32,447 bases of DNA from a virus, in the IMG/VR virus record IMGVR_UViG_3300027977_001345, positions 1 to 32,447 of that record. The stretch is one strand, 5' to 3'. Under the pieces are notes generated by a model. That model did no database searches and had not been told where the DNA came from. It saw nothing but the letters and a program-made list of their open reading frames with translations. Numbering within the stretch: the first letter of the stretch is position 1; every line of letters begins with the position of its first letter. A program made the translations under genes and the position numbers. This document shows positions 7,960 through 20,691 of this stretch, in pieces.

Positions 7960-8373
7960 TTAAAAATTATCTTTTTTAACTTTATTACCAATGTTATATT
8001 TTGGTATTAATTGCCACTCATTCTTTTCTTTGTGTGAAAGAATTTTAATTTGTGATAGGAATATTGGTTCTGGTGTTTGTGTGGATTTTTTATCTACTAA
8101 AGTTATTAGTCCCCAATCTTCCAATAAATTAGCAATTGCGTTTCTACGAGAAAGGTCATTCTCACTAATATCGGTTGGTTTGCCATCTAAAGCAAACAAT
8201 TCTTTAAAATGCACAATGTAATATCTACCTTGCTTGTGTAAAATGTGGCAAGATTGGTATAGTATTTTTTCTTTTTTGGAAGCGACCCCAATACGGGTAA
8301 GTGTTTCTCTGACTTTTAGGAAATCATCTTGTTGATTCAAAGTCACTTCAACTAAATCAGTAATGTTAATCAT
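7960..8373 (-). CDS. regA: RegA translational repressor
   Basis: 137-residue homolog of T4 RegA, which binds start regions of many early mRNAs and blocks translation. The N-terminus (MINITDLVEVTLNQQDDFLK), the central ILYQSCHILHKQGRYYIVHFKE-type segment and LSRRNAIANLLEDWGLI match the family. The C-terminal extension is basic (GNKVKKDNF). The position directly after gp62 with a 4-nt overlap is the T4 order (44-62-regA). Confidence 0.92.
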   Translation of the reverse strand: MINITDLVEVTLNQQDDFLKVRETLTRIGVASKKEKILYQSCHILHKQGRYYIVHFKELFALDGKPTDISENDLSRRNAIANLLEDWGLITLVDKKSTQTPEPIFLSQIKILSHKEKNEWQLIPKYNIGNKVKKDNF

Positions 8374-8753
8374 ATTCCGCCTTTGTCTGTTTTTCTTTTT
8401 ATTTCAGCGATTTGTTCATTAGTAAGAAGTCGTAAAGCCTCTTTGGCTTTCTCATTAGAATAACCAAAATATATCTTTACACATTCTATATTCTTGTCGA
8501 CCTCTGATTTCTGCCACGGTTGGAATTTCCGTTTCATAGGTCTTATGGTATTTAGAAGATATTGATATTGAAGGTCTTTTTCTAGACTTGGGTGCTTGTT
8601 GAGTTCGTTGACATATAAAACACAGTCCATGTGATAGGACAAGGCTCGGTTGATGATGTATGGGTTATAATCTTTATAATCCAACTCATCACGAAATACG
8701 CTTTTTTTCTTCTCCAGTATAGATGGTATGATTTCTTTAAATAAATCTGGCAT
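8370..8753 (-). CDS. 62: Clamp loader small subunit gp62
   Basis: 127-residue partner of gp44 in the sliding-clamp loader. Recognisable segments: YNPYIINRALSYHMDCVLYV, then NTIRPMKRKFQPW, and the C-terminal LTNEQIAEIKRK. It is shorter than T4 gp62 (about 187) but similar in size to those of aquatic T4-like phages. It lies between the PD-(D/E)XK-like gene (1 nt gap) and regA (4-nt overlap). Confidence 0.9.
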   Translation of the reverse strand: MPDLFKEIIPSILEKKKSVFRDELDYKDYNPYIINRALSYHMDCVLYVNELNKHPSLEKDLQYQYLLNTIRPMKRKFQPWQKSEVDKNIECVKIYFGYSNEKAKEALRLLTNEQIAEIKRKTDKGGI

Positions 8754-9215: not shown

Positions 9216-10148
9216 CTATTTAAAAGAACAATCAACCATGATTTCTGTTAAACAAGCTATCATATTGATTTCGTGGTCAGCCACAAAGGCGGATTGATAT
9301 TGGTACTTGGCGAGAATGAGAACTAGTTGTGGTACCGAATCTGGTGTTAATTCTTCATACAAAGAATCATACAATTTTCGATACACTTTGATTGGATCAT
9401 TATCCAAATTATTGGTGACCCATTTACGAGCAGCCGAGAAATCTTTTTCTTTGAGAGCTTTGATTAAAGCTTCGAGTTGAATATCAGCAACATTAGAAAG
9501 GATACCAGAATCAATGGCGCCAGAAACCGAGTATCGCTGCAATTCATTAAGAATTCTTCGATTGTCAGGAAAGTGTTTTGTGATGACGGCGGCAACAACG
9601 TCTTTTGAGTATTTAATTCCTTCTTGTGAAAGGATGTTTTCAACCCGTTTAAAAAATTGTGACGCCAGTTTTGGTTTAGAACCGTTGATTTTAAAATCGA
9701 TAACAGAACAACGGGAATGGATTGGATCAATGATACGATTTTTGAAATTGCATGTGAAGATGAATGAGCAGTTTGATGCAAATTCTTCAATGGCTCCCCG
9801 TAGAGCAGGTTGAGTTGAATTAGGATTGAGATAATCAGCCTCATCAATGATGACAACTTTTCTGCCACCCATGAGCGACATTGAAGAAGCATAGTTTTTG
9901 ATTTTGTTACGTAGGACATCAATGCCAGACTCATCAGAACCATTGATGATAATGTAATCGCAACCAATCTCATTACACAATGCTTTAGCAACTGTTGTTT
10001 TTCCGACACCTGCCGTACCAGATAAAAGAAGATTTGGTATTTCTTTTCTCTTAACGTACTCCTGAAAAGTTTCCTTGATCGCATCCGGAAGAATACATTC
10101 TTCAATTGTTTTTGGTCGATACTTCTCGACCCATAATAAATGTTCCAT
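9216..10148 (-). CDS. 44: Clamp loader large subunit gp44 (AAA+ ATPase)
   Basis: 310-residue AAA+ protein that, with gp62, loads the gp45 clamp on primer-template. N-terminal WVEKYRPKTIEECILP box; Walker A GTAGVGKT at 44-51; Walker B VVIIDEAD at 98-105; sensor/arginine-finger motif SRC at 145-147 in PIHSRCSVIDF. The length matches T4 gp44 (319). GGGAG-type RBS before the ATG at 10148. Confidence 0.97.
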   Translation of the reverse strand: MEHLLWVEKYRPKTIEECILPDAIKETFQEYVKRKEIPNLLLSGTAGVGKTTVAKALCNEIGCDYIIINGSDESGIDVLRNKIKNYASSMSLMGGRKVVIIDEADYLNPNSTQPALRGAIEEFASNCSFIFTCNFKNRIIDPIHSRCSVIDFKINGSKPKLASQFFKRVENILSQEGIKYSKDVVAAVITKHFPDNRRILNELQRYSVSGAIDSGILSNVADIQLEALIKALKEKDFSAARKWVTNNLDNDPIKVYRKLYDSLYEELTPDSVPQLVLILAKYQYQSAFVADHEINMIACLTEIMVDCSFK

Positions 10149-10374: not shown

Positions 10375-11046
10375 TTATTCTCCAAATTTAGAATACTTGG
10401 CTTCAGTTGCAACAAAATACTGAATGTCTTGATTCTTATTTTTAAACAAAGAAAGTCCTTTGGATGAAATTTCCACATCATAAGAACCGGGGATCATTTT
10501 TAGATTTTCAGTTAAGAAAACCATTTTAAATTTTTGACCATTGCCAGCCGCAACTTGAATTGTATTGGTATCGGCTGATGAATCTTTCACATCACAACTG
10601 GTTAAATTAATATCACCACCATCAGATTCTACGACCAGGTTAGGTGACTGTAACACATTCGTGATTTTAATGATAGAATCAAAATCATCTTTGGTGAGAG
10701 TGAAAGTAATATCAACTGAAGGTAGTGTCAATTCCTTATCAGGTGGAATCAAAATACTTTCTTTTTCTGTTTTGCGATACTTGGTTTTGTTACGGCCAAA
10801 GTTAAAGATAATATTGATATCATCAAAATCAATATCCGTATCTTTGCCAATTGAATGAATCGTCAAAAACTTATTCAAATCATACACACAAAAATCTTGT
10901 GGGAAAGAATCTTTTAATGTGGCTTCAGCCAAAACATTTTTTCCTGTAGAAATTGTTTTGATTTTATTGCCAGTTTTGAATTGAATGCCAGAATTTAATT
11001 TGGCAAAGTTTTGTAATACTGTTAGTGTTTCACTCGATAACTTCAT
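10375..11046 (-). CDS. 45: Sliding clamp gp45
   Basis: 223-residue processivity clamp, a homolog of T4 gp45 (228). It starts MKLSSETLTVLQNFAKLNSG and continues with GIQFKTGNKIKTIS, a typical gp45 first strand-helix unit. Later DLNKFLTIHS and the KDDFDSIIKI helix fit the second clamp domain, and it ends QDIQYFVATEAK. I prefer the ATG at 11046 over one 12 nt upstream because ATGGAGAAAACAATG puts GGAG correctly before the second ATG. In T4 the clamp is also the coactivator of gp55-dependent late transcription; gp55 is encoded at 18208-18747. Confidence 0.93.
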   Translation of the reverse strand: MKLSSETLTVLQNFAKLNSGIQFKTGNKIKTISTGKNVLAEATLKDSFPQDFCVYDLNKFLTIHSIGKDTDIDFDDINIIFNFGRNKTKYRKTEKESILIPPDKELTLPSVDITFTLTKDDFDSIIKITNVLQSPNLVVESDGGDINLTSCDVKDSSADTNTIQVAAGNGQKFKMVFLTENLKMIPGSYDVEISSKGLSLFKNKNQDIQYFVATEAKYSKFGE

Positions 11047-11066
11047 TGTTTTCTCCATTATAAAAA

Positions 11067-12306: not shown

Positions 12307-12576
12307 TTAGTTAAAACTATAACCAGCTGATAGCGCTGCACGAACCAAAGATTTAGTTGGTTTACCCATACGATACGCACGAACTGCGGTACCATCGGAA
12401 CGGCGAACTGTGTTGGTGTAAATGCAGTGACCTTCTTGACGTAACTCATCGATACGAGCCGATACGTTTTGAATACCAAAACGAGCACGAGCTTGTGCTG
12501 TGGTCAAAGTGTTGTAGCCTTCAGATTTACTCAAGTAATTGAGAATCTTTTGCTTAGCGGATAATTGCTTTTTCAT
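12307..12576 (-). CDS. Winged-helix DNA-binding protein
   Basis: 89-residue protein MKKQLSAKQKILNYLSKSEG with a turn and recognition helix TTAQARARFGIQNVSARIDE, then a wing-like hairpin (HCIYTNTVRRSDGTAVRAYR). This is the layout of small HTH proteins common in T4-like aquatic phages. A GGAG RBS sits before the ATG at 12576; a longer in-frame reading to 12630 has no RBS. It is a one-gene transcription unit with its own early promoter (12631-12660) and a strong terminator, so it is probably an early regulator. Targets unknown. A 5-bp hairpin (CTTGC/GCAAG, 12610-12624) lies in the leader. Confidence 0.8.
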   Translation of the reverse strand: MKKQLSAKQKILNYLSKSEGYNTLTTAQARARFGIQNVSARIDELRQEGHCIYTNTVRRSDGTAVRAYRMGKPTKSLVRAALSAGYSFN

Positions 12577-12630
12577 AATAAAACTCCATAGTAAGTTAAT
12601 AAAATAACCTTGCGTATTGCAAGTTCTCAC

Positions 12631-12681: not shown

Positions 12682-13947
12682 TTATCTGCCAACTTGTGGC
12701 AAATACTTGGCCTTGGTTTCTTCCCAAGATAAATCAATTAAATCGTCATAGAAAAGTGTTTCATATGAAACATTGTTTTTCTTTTGTAGTTGCCGAATAC
12801 GACCTTTGGCATACTTTGTTTTCCAAATATCACTCAATGCCTTTTCACTGGTATCAAATGACTTTACCAGTTTATCTTCTATAATCTCTTTGCGAAGAAA
12901 TTCATTGGTGTTATTATAAAGAGGACTAAAATAGATGCCTCTCTGATGTTCGGTACGAATCAGTTCTTTTGGTATTTGTAACTTAGAATAAGCAAAATTT
13001 AATGAACGATTTTTGTGGTCACGCTTGAGTGGTAATCCTTGTGTGTTCTTGGCTTCCCACCATTCAAAATATTTACGAGTATGATTTTCTTTAATCCAAT
13101 CAAATACAATTCTTTTGGTTGCTCTTGATGGTTCAAAGGCAACTGAACCTGATGAGAACCCCATTGGATTCCAATGTTCAAGTCCATCATACTGTGATAA
13201 TCCACCGGCTTTTGTTTTACCATACAATGATGTTGTGGTAACTCCAGCAAGAACATCACCATACTGTCGCTTCCAATCTTTCTGAACTGTATCAGATAAA
13301 CACATCAATGCCAATAGTTTACCACCCATGTAATTAAAACCAAGTGGTTGTAACGGAACAATGGTGGATCCAATCGCAGTATGGTTAATCATGTGTTGTT
13401 GTGTTTTAACATCTCTCGACCATCCGATTGCATTATCTCTCGGAGTCAAGTCCAGGAAGTCTGAGGAGATACAGATAACACCAAGGTATTTCTTGGTGAC
13501 TTCATCGGTCAAAACATAAAATAGGTTACGACCAATATTAGAATTGTTTTTCATTGTAGAGGAGAATGTACGAATGGCATTCCATCGTTCCGCTTCAGGT
13601 CCGTTTGATAGAACCATAATTGGTTGTAACTTCTCATAATCATCCGGATCTTTTGGTGTCCAGAAATTGGCTTTAACTTCGTTGATCATATCTCTTTGGC
13701 TAGGATCAACCATTTGCATTTCTTGACCCCACAAAGTGGAAACTTCGTGTTGTGGATATCGTTCTTTTACTTCACACCATTTTTGATATAAAGTATACTC
13801 ACGCACATCCATTTGAGAGGCATATGTTAAGTCCTCAATTAGGACTTTTTTCATTACATCTTCATCAATGTGTTCAAATTTTTCAGCAGGATTTTTTTCT
13901 TGCCAAGCTTGCCATTGCTCTTCTACATATTCAATAGGAGTTGCCAT
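12682..13947 (-). CDS. DUF4338 / DruA-like protein
   Basis: 421-residue protein. The central part, about 139-270, matches as I recall it the DUF4338 family, whose best known member is DruA of the Druantia anti-phage system. NLFYVLTDEVTKKYLGVICI, then LTPRDNAIGWSRD, then VPLQPLGFNYMGGKLLALM, then RQYGDVLAGVTTTSLYG follow in the family's order. The N-terminal 135 residues are helical and charged; the C-terminal 150 contain RNRSLNFAYSKL-type and YFSPLYNNTNEFL segments. It is encoded in a phage between deformylase (1-nt overlap) and the winged-helix unit, with no other Druantia genes nearby. Biochemical activity is unknown; domestication, counter-defence or superinfection exclusion are possible. 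Confidence 0.65.
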   Translation of the reverse strand: MATPIEYVEEQWQAWQEKNPAEKFEHIDEDVMKKVLIEDLTYASQMDVREYTLYQKWCEVKERYPQHEVSTLWGQEMQMVDPSQRDMINEVKANFWTPKDPDDYEKLQPIMVLSNGPEAERWNAIRTFSSTMKNNSNIGRNLFYVLTDEVTKKYLGVICISSDFLDLTPRDNAIGWSRDVKTQQHMINHTAIGSTIVPLQPLGFNYMGGKLLALMCLSDTVQKDWKRQYGDVLAGVTTTSLYGKTKAGGLSQYDGLEHWNPMGFSSGSVAFEPSRATKRIVFDWIKENHTRKYFEWWEAKNTQGLPLKRDHKNRSLNFAYSKLQIPKELIRTEHQRGIYFSPLYNNTNEFLRKEIIEDKLVKSFDTSEKALSDIWKTKYAKGRIRQLQKKNNVSYETLFYDDLIDLSWEETKAKYLPQVGR

Positions 13948-14519
13948 TATTTCATTTTCATCTTTTTCATTAGTTTACTTCTTTTTTGTAAACCAGATTG
14001 CAATGCCATTGGTTTAGTTTTACTAGTATACACTATTCCATTCATGTGGTCAAGCTCATGTTGGAAACAACGAGCAGATATGCCAGAAAAAGTGGCACCT
14101 TTCCATTCTCCATTAAAATCTTGGTAACGAACTCCTATTTCTGCCGGTCGAGTAATCCTTAAACCTAATAAAGGAAAAGAAAGGCAACCTTCAATCATAT
14201 GGTTTTCTTCTTTTGATATATTGATGATTTCGGGATTAAAGAATGCCACATAATCATCATTGGTACCCATTACAAACACTCTGTACCTAAATCCACATTG
14301 GTTTGCTGATAATCCATATCCACGATAGTATTTGCAAGTTTCAACGAGAGTGGATGCAAACAAACTAGGATTAACCGGTGGATTATTGAAATCAAATTCG
14401 GGCATAACTTCAGTTAAAATTGAATCGGTTTCAGGCACCAACTTAAAAATATTAATTTGTTTTTTTGGTTCGGAAACTTTTACCGCATCTTCAGTATTAA
14501 ACGTAATTATATCACTCAT
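13947..14519 (-). CDS. def: Peptide deformylase
   Basis: 190-residue metalloenzyme that removes the formyl group from N-terminal Met of new proteins. All three PDF motifs are there: GLSANQCG at 69-76, EGCLS at 110-114 (metal ligand C112), and HELDH at 154-158 (metal ligands H154, H158, catalytic E155). Residues 1-30 are an extra N-terminal stretch, and the C-terminus is Lys/Met-rich (KRSKLMKKMKMK). Phage deformylases are common in T4-like aquatic phages. Start overlaps the heme oxygenase end by 8 nt. Confidence 0.95.
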   Translation of the reverse strand: MSDIITFNTEDAVKVSEPKKQINIFKLVPETDSILTEVMPEFDFNNPPVNPSLFASTLVETCKYYRGYGLSANQCGFRYRVFVMGTNDDYVAFFNPEIINISKEENHMIEGCLSFPLLGLRITRPAEIGVRYQDFNGEWKGATFSGISARCFQHELDHMNGIVYTSKTKPMALQSGLQKRSKLMKKMKMK

Positions 14520-15060
14520 TTATTTTCTCCTGTAATTCATCAAATATTCCCATAGACAATTCAAATCCAAATAAGGCTTCTTCAACTAACTCTGTGGATA
14601 ATTTAGCATCTAGTAATTTGATTAGTGCCGGCCTATCTTCGAACTGATATGATTTGCCGGAACCAGGTACTCTTTTTGCAATAATTTTTCCACCATATAA
14701 ATCGCCCATATGTCGAACATAGATGTGTGCCAACAGAAGGTGTCTTTTTTCTGGTGCGTAAAATAATTCTTCCATGTGCTTACGGTACTTTTGTGTACTT
14801 TCATATTTGTTGGTTGGATAACCAGAATTCAATTCAGCCAAATCTTGTAGAATATAATTAGAACGCTTTATGTCCGGTAAATCTTGAATTAATCCAGCCA
14901 ACTCTGCATAATATTCCAAGATAGCATAAACAGGAAACATCTGTTGTAGATACATTACATAATGTTCTTTCGTAATCGTTCCACCTAGAAGGTATTGAAC
15001 AAATGGTTTTGCTTCGGCTTCTCTGTGTTTGGCGTTTGTGTGTTCTCTTAAAATACTCAT
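14512..15060 (-). CDS. ho1: Heme oxygenase
   Basis: 182-residue all-helical heme oxygenase (HO-1/HemO fold) that opens heme to biliverdin, releasing iron and CO and consuming reductant and oxygen. The proximal heme ligand is H12 in SILREHTNAKHREAE, and the distal-helix motif GDLYGGK is at 119-125. LGGTITKEHYVMYLQQM and LLLAHIYVRHMG match the family. It is somewhat shorter than cyanobacterial Ho1. Cyanophage homologs serve bilin synthesis, but no bilin reductase is present here, so release of iron from heme is the more likely role. Overlaps gp46 by ATGA. Confidence 0.87.
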   Translation of the reverse strand: MSILREHTNAKHREAEAKPFVQYLLGGTITKEHYVMYLQQMFPVYAILEYYAELAGLIQDLPDIKRSNYILQDLAELNSGYPTNKYESTQKYRKHMEELFYAPEKRHLLLAHIYVRHMGDLYGGKIIAKRVPGSGKSYQFEDRPALIKLLDAKLSTELVEEALFGFELSMGIFDELQEKINE

Positions 15061-16772
15061 TTTGCCACCTGACTAAAATTATTTTTCTTTTCAAATTTAA
15101 TAATTGACCTGAACTTATCAAACAACTGGTCACCTTTATGGGAGATAACAAATATATTTGTGTCGTTGCCCATTTCATGAATCAACTTTAAAAACTCCTC
15201 TGTACCAACTCCATCCAAAGAAGAATCAAATACTTCATCGAGTATCAATAGATTGGTATTTGTACTATTCTTTAATTTGGCAATCTGTCGCCATGTAAAC
15301 AATAGTGCCAAATCAATACGCATTTTTTCACCTTCGGAGAAATTAGCATAACCAAATTCATCACGGTGCCTTGATTTAATTGTTTCTTCAAATGATTCAT
15401 TGATATTGAAATTTACAAAGAAGTCCATGGCTGTCAAATATTTATTAATCAGTTTATTCATGATGGGCAAATATTGACGTATAATTTTGGTTTTAATACC
15501 AGTATCTTTTAACAAATTACTTGCAAACTCATAATATTGTTTTTCGGTTGCAAGGCCTTCTTGTTTGGTAACCAATGCAGTGAGTTCTGATTTGAGTTCT
15601 TTTAATTTGGCATTTTCTTCTTCTAGGTTATCTTTACGATTAGATAAATCATTAATTTCATTTTGTAATTTACCAATAAAACTATTTACTGCTGTAATAG
15701 TAGAATTGTGTTTTACAACTTCATTATTATGTGCTTGTATGTGTTGTAGTGTCTTTTGTATGGTATTAATTCTATCACTTGTTTCCGTAATTTGTTTTGC
15801 AATATCTGTTAATGCACCATTGACTTCAACCTTAGTTTCATTTAGTATAGTAATTTGTTGTTCTCTAAACTCTTGGTCGATGCCTTGTTTGCAAGTAGGA
15901 CAATCACTATTGTCATGGTAAAAACCAACTTCTTTTTCAATCTTCTTTAAACGAGATTCCAGTTTAGATTCCAAATGAACCAGTTTGCCACTTTTTTTCT
16001 GCACGGCCATTTGATCCGATATCTTACTATTCAACACATCAATGTGTTTCTGAATTAATACAATATCTTTGTTTAACTTTTTAACCTGTTCTTCTGAATC
16101 AGTAATATCTTTTTGTTTCTTTTCAATCTCGGCATCATTGTGTTTACGGTGTTCTTCAATACTTTGTTTTTGAAAGTTAATCTTTTCAGATGTCAAATCC
16201 ATTTCATATTTGTTTTTGGTAGAGGTATCTTTAATGACAGCCATCTTCTCTTTGACCACACCATTCATGGATGAAAAGATTTGAATATCTAACAAGTCCT
16301 CAATAATTGCTCTGCGGTCTGCTGGCGACAATTGCATAAATGGAACAAATGAAGCCGAACCAAGAATCACCACTTGAGTGAACGATTTATAATTTAATTT
16401 GAGAATAAATTTTTCTAAGTGTTCTTGATAATCTTTGGCTTTAGCATCTTGGTCAACCAGTATGCCATTACAATATACTTCAAATGTATTTGGTTTAATA
16501 CCACGAATTACTTTGTATTGTTTTTTGCCAATAGAAAACTCGACCTCAACTATACAATCAGATTGGTTGATGGAGTTTGGTAGTTGTGGTTTATTGATTT
16601 TACGAAATGGTTTACCAAAAAGACCAAAACATAAGGCGTCCAGTATCGTAGATTTGCCTGCACCATTGTTACCAATGATAAGTGTATTTGGTGATTTTGT
16701 TAGTTGAATTTCGGTAAAATATGATCCAGTTGAAAGAAAATTCTTCCAACGGACTTTTTCAAATATAATCAT
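15057..16772 (-). CDS. 46: Recombination exonuclease subunit gp46 (Rad50/SbcC-like)
   Basis: 571-residue SMC-type ATPase that with gp47 resects DNA ends for recombination-dependent replication. Walker A GNNGAGKS at 34-41; long coiled coil about 170-420 with the zinc hook CPTC (C291, C294) at its apex; ABC signature FSEGEKMRIDLALLF; Walker B LLILDEVFDSSLDGVG. Length is close to T4 gp46 (560). Overlaps gp47 by ATGA. Confidence 0.96.
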   Translation of the reverse strand: MIIFEKVRWKNFLSTGSYFTEIQLTKSPNTLIIGNNGAGKSTILDALCFGLFGKPFRKINKPQLPNSINQSDCIVEVEFSIGKKQYKVIRGIKPNTFEVYCNGILVDQDAKAKDYQEHLEKFILKLNYKSFTQVVILGSASFVPFMQLSPADRRAIIEDLLDIQIFSSMNGVVKEKMAVIKDTSTKNKYEMDLTSEKINFQKQSIEEHRKHNDAEIEKKQKDITDSEEQVKKLNKDIVLIQKHIDVLNSKISDQMAVQKKSGKLVHLESKLESRLKKIEKEVGFYHDNSDCPTCKQGIDQEFREQQITILNETKVEVNGALTDIAKQITETSDRINTIQKTLQHIQAHNNEVVKHNSTITAVNSFIGKLQNEINDLSNRKDNLEEENAKLKELKSELTALVTKQEGLATEKQYYEFASNLLKDTGIKTKIIRQYLPIMNKLINKYLTAMDFFVNFNINESFEETIKSRHRDEFGYANFSEGEKMRIDLALLFTWRQIAKLKNSTNTNLLILDEVFDSSLDGVGTEEFLKLIHEMGNDTNIFVISHKGDQLFDKFRSIIKFEKKNNFSQVAK

Positions 16773-17884
16773 GCCTGCTCTTGATTTAGTGCCTCAACAT
16801 ATAACTCACGCATTACTGTTTTTAGCTTTTCATTATTAATATGTTCTTCTTGAATACCATCTACAAACTTATTAATAATTGTGATAGTATCTTCTGCTTG
16901 GTCAACCATATCATCTTCTACACCTTCTGTCAAGTCCGTAAAGTCCTCGGCAATGGTAATATCAACAGGATTTACATTGTATAAACTATTCATAAACTTG
17001 TCAAACAGATAAGGAATAGTTTTGTTGACTACCACTACTTTAACATAGGTATTGGTATACTTGCTTAAATCTTTATTGGTAATGTCCGTAATTGATTCCA
17101 CTTTATCATCATAAACAATTCTATGAAACATTACATTTGGATTTTTTATAAAATCAAGATTGCGTGTAGTAAGATCAAAAAGGTGAAAACCTCTAGTGTC
17201 ATTATAATCTTGCCAAGTAAGTTCATACGGGTTTCCAAGATAGTGAATACCATCAGCTGAACTCCTATGATGATAGTGACCACTAAAAGTAAAATCGAAG
17301 CGTCTAAATAACTCACGACTTAATCCTTCCTGGCTTGGCATGCCACGATACATGGCAAAACCGGCAATCTCAAAATGTCCCATACAAATGGTTGCCGATG
17401 TGTTTTGTATTTCTGCCAAACTGTTATCATAATTCTCTGGACATATCCAGGGAATCATACAAATATCATAATCAACATTACTATATTTTAAATGAATAGT
17501 TTGGGGAGATGAAATGACATTAATGTTACTATATTCTTGTAATAATAAATCAACTGAATTGACTTCATTGGTATTTTTAAAATAAGTATCATGGTTACCT
17601 GCCAACATATGCACTTGAATGCCTTTGTCATACAACTTATCAAAGAACATTTCCCTTGCACGTTTAAGTGTAAAAAAGTTTACATATTTCCTACGGTCAA
17701 AAGTATCTCCCAAAATAAGAACAGTATCTATACCATGTTCTTCAAGAGTTGGAAAAAAGGTATCACGATAAAATTTTTCATAATAATCTAAGAAATGGAT
17801 TGAATCATTACGAGCACCAAAATGTTGGTCGGTAATGATGGCAACTTTAGTTTCGGTCTGGTTTTCTTTGGTCAATATTGTCAT
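16769..17884 (-). CDS. 47: Recombination nuclease subunit gp47 (Mre11/SbcD-like)
   Basis: 371-residue metallophosphoesterase paired with gp46. Metal motifs: DQHFG in the first strand, LILGDTFDRRKY, LAGNHDTY, then CMGHFEIAG and SGHYHHRSS. I start at the ATG on 17884 (MTILTKENQ); the longer reading would need a TTG codon at 17899. This start lies inside the 3' end of the small gene at 17847-18014 (38-nt overlap). Length fits T4 gp47 (339) with a modest C-terminal extension. Confidence 0.95.
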   Translation of the reverse strand: MTILTKENQTETKVAIITDQHFGARNDSIHFLDYYEKFYRDTFFPTLEEHGIDTVLILGDTFDRRKYVNFFTLKRAREMFFDKLYDKGIQVHMLAGNHDTYFKNTNEVNSVDLLLQEYSNINVISSPQTIHLKYSNVDYDICMIPWICPENYDNSLAEIQNTSATICMGHFEIAGFAMYRGMPSQEGLSRELFRRFDFTFSGHYHHRSSADGIHYLGNPYELTWQDYNDTRGFHLFDLTTRNLDFIKNPNVMFHRIVYDDKVESITDITNKDLSKYTNTYVKVVVVNKTIPYLFDKFMNSLYNVNPVDITIAEDFTDLTEGVEDDMVDQAEDTITIINKFVDGIQEEHINNEKLKTVMRELYVEALNQEQA

Positions 17885-18014
17885 AATATTTAATTTCAAT
17901 CACGGATTCATTTGGTCTGTTGCCAGCAAAAAATGTGGCTTCTTGTAGTGTTTTAAAGTATTTAAAAAACACAGTCGATTCGGCAGACATTGGATAATAA
18001 CTCACTTTATACAC
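17847..18014 (-). CDS. 55-residue protein, tandem paralog 1 (GTG start)
   Basis: Reading frame with a GTG start and an AGGAG RBS 6 nt before it. Beginning YKVSYYPMSAESTVFFKYF, then KTLQEATFFAG and VIEIKYYDNID. It aligns along its length with the next upstream gene (YKVxYYP, then FK-[YW]-FKT, then EIKxYD), which confirms the frame and the GTG start. A beta-alpha-beta miniature fold is likely. Function unknown; the end overlaps the gp47 start. Confidence 0.75.
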   Translation of the reverse strand: MYKVSYYPMSAESTVFFKYFKTLQEATFFAGNRPNESVIEIKYYDNIDQRKPDRN

Positions 18015-18826: not shown

Positions 18827-19207
18827 TTAATGTAATAGATTACCATCATGGTTTAAATCTTGAAAATGTTCTAAAGCTTCATCTATTTCTTCGTCAGTCA
18901 TTTCTTGAACCATTTTTTTAGCTTTTAGTAAATCTTGTATTTTCTTTATTGTGTTAACGTAATACTCACAGAAATCATCAGCAGGATCAATTACACAAAG
19001 TATATCTTGTTTCTCCAACACAGTTTCGTTTTTTTTAATTAATTGAATAGGCAACCAATGTTTCATCACGAGGCCAAGTTCTCGACCTTGGAATTCTAAA
19101 CCAACATACATTGGTTCACTAATGTCATAAGCACTAATGCCATTGGCAGTTAATTGACCAACAATATCTTCACCATTCTTCAACCTGACTATTTTTATAT
19201 TGTTCAT
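18827..19207 (-). CDS. LSm/Sm-like phage protein (second of two)
   Basis: 126-residue protein: MNNIKIVRLKNGEDIVGQLT matches the Sm1-type start (strand, 'L-x-N-G-E-D-I-V-G'), followed by strands ISEPMYVGLEF and LGLVMKHWLP. A C-terminal helical acidic extension (VQEMTDEEIDEALEHFQDL) is absent from the first copy. Same fold as the gene at 224-535 but clearly diverged. Cyanophage-type Sm proteins have this length. Overlaps UvsW by 4 nt. RNA binding is inferred from the fold. A plus-strand promoter points at its 3' end. Confidence 0.65.
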   Translation of the reverse strand: MNNIKIVRLKNGEDIVGQLTANGISAYDISEPMYVGLEFQGRELGLVMKHWLPIQLIKKNETVLEKQDILCVIDPADDFCEYYVNTIKKIQDLLKAKKMVQEMTDEEIDEALEHFQDLNHDGNLLH

Positions 19208-20691
19208 TTTTTTAGTCCTATTTTGTATATTTTGAATGGGAACCTCTCCTCATTATATATCTTAGTTCTTTCCAAGAAATGTTTTAATGTATAATTCATA
19301 TGTTTTTTATATCTAAGGTCATCTGCTATGTCGTATAATGTGGCTATTTCTTTGCCATCACTCTGTCGTAAGCCTCGTCCAATGCTTTGCAAAGTGCGTA
19401 TACTCGATTTTGTTGGCATCGCAAATATAATGTTATGCAAATTCCTAATATTAATACCAGTGCTAAAAGTCCCAAAAGAAGCCACAATAATAGCATCGTT
19501 TTCTATCTCCATAATTTTTCGTATTTCTTCACGGTCAGTAGTTTCAGTACCACCATAAATGAAGAACACTTTTCTATTACTAATGTTTTTGGTGTTCTTT
19601 ATCATATCATACAGGATACGACCATGTTTGTCAACCATTTGGAAAAGTATAAGAGTATTTTTGCCTAAGCTAACTGCAAGATTCTTAATAAATTTATTTC
19701 TTGCTTCATGTGAAATGAGATATTCAATTTCTTCTTGGTATGTTTTATCTTTTGCCTTTAAGCATTCATCATCGGTATGTTTTAAAACTAAACATTTAAT
19801 TTCAAAATTTGAGAGTTGTTGTTTATCAATTAATTCTTTTGTACTAATAACTTTTTTGACCGTACCAAATAAACCCTCTAATACCAGTTTGTGTGTTTTG
19901 GTACCATCTAAAGTTCCTGTAAGTCCAATACGGTATTTGGCATTAACACAAGATGTCAATATAGTTGTTAATGATTGTGCTTTAAACAGATGTGCCTCAT
20001 CACCAATGATATAATCAAACTGATGAAAGTATTCTTTTGGAAGTTTATACAAAGATTGCCATGTAGAAATGGCAAGTGGTTTGTCGGTGTTTTTTTCTTT
20101 ACCTTGGTAAATACGATGCACCTCGGTCATTTCACCATTGTTATAATCACCAAAGTCGGAGTATAATTGTTCAACCAAAGATGTGGTAGGAACAATAATA
20201 AGACCTTTGAGATTTTGATATTGGCGTAATTGACGGAAGATTAGATAGATGATAAGAGATTTGCCAGATGCCGTTGGAGAAACCAACAACGCTCGGCGTT
20301 TTTGCATGGCATGAATATAAGCATCTAATTGATGTTCTCGTATTTCAATTGGTTCACCTCGAGCGTGGATATTCAAATCTCCTATGAATTTCTTCGCATG
20401 ATATACCGAGCATTCATCTTCAATATCAGGCCTTGGATTACCATAATCAAATGTATAACTTCTTTCATTACAAAATGCTTCAATGTAAGGTAATAAACCA
20501 AGATAGATTTGATTCGTTTGTAAATTAAACATACGAATTTTTCCATCCCAAATTCTATTACGATAAGCTGGAACAAATTGGTAACCAGGAACAAAAAAAG
20601 TAAAGTATTCGGATAACTCTTTTGTAATGTGTTTCTCACAAGTTACCTTGGCATATACCTCATCTTTTTTTATTATGGTTATATCACTCAT
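19204..20691 (-). CDS. uvsW: UvsW helicase
   Basis: 495-residue SF2 helicase, homolog of T4 UvsW (503), which unwinds R-loops and branched DNA and helps switch from origin- to recombination-dependent replication. The N-terminal part ends at IREHQLDAYIHAMQK (Q-like motif). Then Walker A SPTASGKS about 138-145, DEAH at 231-234, GLTGTLDGT about 257, and motif VI QSIGRGLRQ. ATGA overlaps at both ends tie it to the LSm gene and the gene at 20688. Confidence 0.95.
   Translation of the reverse strand: MSDITIIKKDEVYAKVTCEKHITKELSEYFTFFVPGYQFVPAYRNRIWDGKIRMFNLQTNQIYLGLLPYIEAFCNERSYTFDYGNPRPDIEDECSVYHAKKFIGDLNIHARGEPIEIREHQLDAYIHAMQKRRALLVSPTASGKSLIIYLIFRQLRQYQNLKGLIIVPTTSLVEQLYSDFGDYNNGEMTEVHRIYQGKEKNTDKPLAISTWQSLYKLPKEYFHQFDYIIGDEAHLFKAQSLTTILTSCVNAKYRIGLTGTLDGTKTHKLVLEGLFGTVKKVISTKELIDKQQLSNFEIKCLVLKHTDDECLKAKDKTYQEEIEYLISHEARNKFIKNLAVSLGKNTLILFQMVDKHGRILYDMIKNTKNISNRKVFFIYGGTETTDREEIRKIMEIENDAIIVASFGTFSTGINIRNLHNIIFAMPTKSSIRTLQSIGRGLRQSDGKEIATLYDIADDLRYKKHMNYTLKHFLERTKIYNEERFPFKIYKIGLKK

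Follow-up and report, generated by a model that had tools for sequence, protein, structure and literature searches.

A near-core DUF4338 gene in the replication module of a T4-like phage group is a candidate DNA-modifying acyltransferase

DruA, a component of the bacterial defence system Druantia, belongs to the DUF4338 family (PF14236), which was annotated as GNAT in an earlier published analysis (PMC10853773), and DruA-like proteins of Synechococcus phages have been reported in the Phold paper (PMC12774648). Two phage systems that modify DNA bases serve as points of comparison: Mom is a GNAT that modifies N6 of adenine (PMC7824862), and CmoY, CmoX and CmoA of phage S-B43 make 5-glycylcarboxymethylcytosine, as established by biochemistry and by liquid chromatography-mass spectrometry of virion DNA (PMC12783734). 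Here we analyze a 421-residue DUF4338 protein encoded in a viral DNA of 32,447 nucleotides (IMG/VR record IMGVR_UViG_3300027977_001345, hereafter the window, meaning this whole stretch). It is probably a GNAT-fold acyltransferase that adds an acyl-type group to the phage's own DNA bases and so gives resistance to host nucleases.

A near-core gene and the enzymes that take its place

An initial sequence-only reading of the window had assigned the protein to the DUF4338/DruA family, and a profile search confirmed this: PF14236 (DruA) matched residues 131-352 over profile positions 73-296 of 297 (E 6e-20, 71.9 bits), with membership defined as a score over the Pfam gathering cut-off of 27 bits across most of the model. 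The PADLOC DruA profile (52 bits) and phrog_19197 (96 bits) also matched the 421-residue protein, and an NCBIfam search with it gave no match. The reading frame begins with ATG on the minus strand, and the plus strand there is stop-rich. Because full-length relatives were found in hundreds of IMG/VR contigs (at least 598 matched stretches) and dN/dS against close relatives is 0.05-0.09, indicating strong purifying selection, this is not a chance frame. In an alignment of 53 sequences the relatives align over most of the length of the window protein, and PF14236 matches all 53 (E <= 1). The closest isolates by protein are the Pelagibacter phages Mosig EXVC030M (60%) and HTVC008M (55%), relatives that point to a SAR11-type host for the window phage; its recognizable T4-like myovirus genes are those for terminase, sheath, portal, capsid, UvsY, UvsW, gp55, gp47, gp46, gp45, gp44, gp62 and RegA.

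Loci fetched with the DUF4338 protein itself are a biased sample, and contigs were therefore sampled by the window's gp46. The 80 best gp46 matches were used, so that the counts describe close relatives of the window rather than all T4-like phages. Among the 43 with at least 5 kb of downstream sequence, DUF4338 was present in 42, and the deformylase, winged helix-turn-helix (wHTH) and gp45 genes were present in every one. Under a looser length rule, DUF4338 followed the deformylase in 62 of the 64 relatives with a readable slot. The DUF4338 gene is thus near-core in this phage group, and the idea of an accessory or sporadic gene was rejected. The description of the surroundings as an accessory locus holds for the heme oxygenase gene, found in only 3/43 of the relatives, and fails for DUF4338. 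The deformylase, whose motifs are intact, occurs in 43/43 and looks core in the group.

Both loci that lack DUF4338 (2/2) carry DNA-modification genes in the slot. In L562, three proteins are encoded between the deformylase and wHTH genes: an asparagine-synthase-like ligase, a C5-cytosine methyltransferase (CmoX, with an SPPC motif) and a CmoA-like methyltransferase. They are 50.0, 48.5 and 48.9% identical, respectively, to three adjacent genes of S-B43; this 20-kb record, a fragment, has no DUF4338 match. The slot of L564 holds a 2-oxoglutarate-Fe(II) protein of the Asp/Arg-hydroxylase type and a 523-residue protein that carries an SPPY motif and scores against families of DNA methyltransferases (E 1e-6 in PHROG; 22 bits for Pfam N6_N4_Mtase, under the cut-off of 26.7). 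Similarly, S-CRM01 carries CmoA-CmoX inside its gp45-gp44-gp62-regA operon, near the position of DUF4338 in other cyanophages. The Cmo enzymes are non-homologous to DUF4338, being S-adenosylmethionine-type methyltransferases and an asparagine-synthase-like ligase, yet they occupy the identical slot in L562, and in S-CRM01 the same replication operon contains CmoA and CmoX. Because DNA-modifying enzymes fill the slot in the two relatives without DUF4338, DNA modification is its most likely role; the number is small but pointed, and we infer the role from it rather than take it as proof. The six Synechococcus records that carry CmoA are all absent from the list of DUF4338 carriers, but in cyanophages DUF4338 is too patchy for this absence to bear on exclusion between it and the Cmo genes. 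In the four Melnitz phages of Methylophilales (MZ577095-MZ577098), a deformylase match overlaps a peptide deformylase annotation and, in three of them, one reading "nucleotide modification associated domain" as well; a CmoX-like methyltransferase is encoded at another site of the Melnitz genome.

The family recurs among the replication genes of marine T4-like phages in several different slots (gp46, gp44-gp62 and gp43-uvsX). Phage copies form two separate tree groups, a long type of SAR11 phages (~420-430 residues) and a short type of cyanophages (~375 residues). HTVC008M has one copy of each type, one near gp46 and the other between gp43 and uvsX (the HTVC008M loci are L002:7989-9131 and L457:6001-7125). 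For 176 of 226 long copies the nearest recognized upstream gene is the deformylase gene, and for 168 short copies it is gp44 in 120, with gp62 the nearest downstream gene in 137; in L471-L473 a long-type copy comes after gp44. Two contigs binned as archaeal yet phage-like carry tandem DUF4338 pairs close to a DNA-polymerase gene (L408:2280-4708 and L409:969-3478). In cyanophages the short type is patchy: the records number 31 in total, compared with 512 that have a related gp44, and about 26 compared with ~460 when cyanophage records alone are counted.

Predicted fold and proposed activity

The confident AlphaFold2 model of the window protein (pLDDT 89.9) has a GNAT acyltransferase core, and Foldseek matches in the PDB are mostly GNATs, with probability up to 0.96; a search of solved structures by sequence gave no meaningful match. 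In BFVD the top matches are the giant-virus proteins of Faunusvirus (E 8e-19), Yasminevirus and Dasosvirus; further down, Mom leads the named enzymes of GNAT type (E 6e-4, probability 1.00). The giant-virus matches (A0A3G4ZXG3, A0A5K0UAJ3 and A0A3G4ZRA1) are the strongest in that library, so eukaryotic viruses may also have members of the family. A relative in S-SCSM2R was named "methylcarbamoylase mom" by its GenBank submitter. Mom of phage Mu is thus the best named enzyme match in a viral fold library to the predicted GNAT fold and is likewise phage-encoded, but its gene belongs to the late class and lies at the end of the Mu genome, whereas the DUF4338 gene sits among replication genes, and hhalign detected no sequence-profile similarity between the two.

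Ten residues are invariant from the phages to Druantia: G139, G156, R170, P201, G209, K210, L211, G243, Y253 and R383. Four of them fall in the motif QPLGFNYMGGKLL, placed by alignments and secondary structure in the loop that follows core strand four and at the beginning of the next helix, which is likely the site for the pyrophosphate of coenzyme A (CoA). G243 and Y253 lie in a second conserved region (Table 1), and Y253 is a candidate catalytic acid; tyrosine as general acid is common in GNATs (PMC8072286). In the proposed mechanism, acyl-CoA would bind close to the QPxGxNxxGGKLL loop, the attack would come from an amino group on a DNA base, the bases of the phage DNA would carry an acyl-type group, analogous to the action of Mom on adenine, and DNA decorated in this way would resist host nucleases. 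Catalysis, DNA as the substrate, the base and acyl donor concerned and the protective benefit are all what we infer here.

Several results weigh against DNA-base acylation. The fold E-values in the PDB are weak (best 0.02, none at E <= 0.001), and Foldseek also matches protein N-terminal acetyltransferases. The conserved QPxGxNxxGGKLL stands at the expected loop place, but its spacing differs from the canonical GNAT loop Q/RxxGxG/A, which is not clearly present. Comparison with eight Mom proteins by hhalign gave no sequence-profile link (probability 0.3%), and homology to Mom at the sequence level was thus not found. The slot replacements number just two, in fragments that could have DUF4338 elsewhere, and the adjoining deformylase could point to a protein substrate.

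Table 1. The DUF4338 gene, its conserved parts and recognized genes nearby, in window coordinates.
Feature	Position	Strand	Basis or remark
gp62 clamp loader subunit	8370..8753	-	
gp44 clamp loader subunit	9216..10148	-	
gp45 sliding clamp	10375..11058	-	
Winged-HTH protein (HTH_39), downstream slot border	12307..12630	-	listed start GTG; internal ATG may be true start
DUF4338/DruA-family protein, 421 aa, predicted GNAT-fold acyltransferase	12682..13947	-	PF14236, AlphaFold2, Foldseek GNAT and Mom matches
DUF4338 domain, residues 131-352	12892..13557	-	PF14236 match
TTTSLYG...SQYDGL region, residues 237-256, with G243 and Y253	13180..13239	-	alignments
QPLGFNYMGGKLL motif, residues 200-212	13312..13350	-	alignments, secondary structure
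Peptide deformylase, conserved upstream neighbor	13947..14519	-	active-site motifs GLSANQ, EGCLS, HELDH intact
Heme oxygenase, variable gene of the locus	14512..15060	-	3/43 relatives
gp46 recombination endonuclease subunit	15057..16772	-	
gp47 recombination endonuclease subunit	16769..17899	-	

Alternative roles and the relation to Druantia

The nearest competitor is a protein acyltransferase acting on a replication, transcription or host protein, such as the N-termini exposed by deformylase, and thereby aiding takeover or replication. GNATs are mostly protein or small-molecule acyltransferases, Foldseek lists the N-terminal acetyltransferases NatD and Naa60 along with histone acetyltransferases, and the deformylase adjoins most long copies in the counts above. 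This role is nevertheless unlikely, as both loci without the gene hold DNA-modification genes in the slot and the short copies stand between clamp-loader genes without a deformylase.

Less likely again is a non-catalytic, GNAT-like binder of DNA or replisome proteins that assists replication or recombination as an accessory factor. Such a factor would be in keeping with a place beside gp46/gp47 and the genes of the clamp or clamp loader, with the unclear CoA loop and with a possible gp45-like clamp next to copies in bacterial islands. Against it, P201, G209, K210, L211, G243 and Y253 lie in predicted active-site loops and are invariant from phages to Druantia, an enzyme-like pattern, and it is enzymes that replace the gene in the slot.

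The island copies are phage-like and lie in integrase-bearing bacterial islands (L411:4335-8676, L410:6001-11516 and L413:4082-9230), whose hosts are Polynucleobacter, beside a guaA-like gene, and metagenome-assembled genomes of Rhizobiales and Pelagibacteraceae. In L410 and L411 the neighboring protein matches the T4-type gp45 sliding clamp (hhalign probability 81%, P 1e-5), gp45 proteins rank first for it among ~50 phage proteins, and a second shared protein lies beside it. The AlphaFold2 model of the L411 protein has a pLDDT of 35, and its likeness to a clamp comes from profile comparison alone. These islands could be phage satellites; a viral-contig search with the L411 copy found no relative. 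Compact bacterial copies of DUF4338 also adjoin a NurA-domain protein (L433:200-2589; Pfam 34 bits) and TniQ (L434:118-3617; 105 bits).

The window protein and DruA share the PF14236 domain and its invariant residues, but their N-terminal regions differ, and the window protein is 17-19% identical to compact bacterial copies (those of Druantia and those linked to NurA or TniQ), which form a separate clade. In an unrooted DUF4338 tree, phage proteins and Druantia DruA fall in separate clades divided by a branch of 2.98 with 100/100 support, subject to a long-branch warning; genuine Druantia-type plasmid loci have the large helicase, with their DruA on a long separate branch. As the sequence-only reading had noted, Druantia partners (DruB-E or a helicase) are missing: neither a DruE-type large helicase nor any other Dru gene lies beside the DUF4338 gene in the window, where the sole recognized helicase is UvsW (19204-20691), and no partner genes were found near it in Mosig, HTVC008M or six cyanophages. 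That reading had also named the deformylase, heme oxygenase and regulator as neighbors, and domain matches in the window agree, the regulator being the wHTH protein.

On the host side, PF14236 in 297 SAR11-order genomes matched only five proteins of 661-703 residues and one integrase-island copy, with none recognized as being of Druantia type. Inspection of three of the five neighborhoods of the long proteins showed a GHKL-type ATPase, identified by eye from its sequence, adjoining DUF4338, and no recognizable DruE. These pairs, with a DUF4338 protein of ~660-700 residues, lie beside his genes (L484:6300-10114, L485:7688-11578 and L487:8147-12178) and are possibly a different defence pair.

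An anti-defence or exclusion factor, either a mimic of DruA acting against host Druantia or an excluder of competing phages, both suggested by the sequence-only reading, is very improbable: the shared Pfam family, the published resemblance in fold between cyanophage proteins and DruA (PMC12774648) and a BLASTP match to a Druantia DruA (E 6e-14, 23%) speak for it, but the deep split in the tree, with its long-branch warning, and the 297-genome search leave mimicry unsupported, and the gene is near-core rather than sporadic in the group and has no partner genes at the locus. DNA modification was absent from the proposals of the sequence-only reading and fits the slot-replacement evidence better.

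Significance for the phages and the family

The T4-like phages that infect SAR11 and marine cyanobacteria are abundant, and to our knowledge little work has addressed the chemistry of their DNA. The database proteins Mosig_00022, S-PRM1 gp050 and S-SCSM2R_152 are members of the same phage family, and GenBank annotation already has DUF4338 in Mosig and Mom in S-SCSM2R; these entries offer names or fold similarity, and the open-licence literature that was searched gave no near-core, slot or function analysis of them, no proposal of DNA modification as the role of phage DUF4338 proteins and no explanation of the role of DruA. New are the near-core status, the replication-slot pattern, the finding that known DNA-modification genes can take its place, and the hypothesis built on these.

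More tentatively, DUF4338 as a whole might be a large unrecognized family of DNA-base acyltransferases, serving genome hypermodification at replication in marine T4-like phages and forming the DNA-marking component in operons of bacteria, Druantia included. From a near-core gene for a predicted DNA-modifying acyltransferase one would expect an undescribed base in the DNA of Mosig, HTVC008M or S-PRM1. If the family-wide proposal is true, these phages would contain such a base and the role of DruA, for which DNA modification would give a biochemical hypothesis, would be explained.
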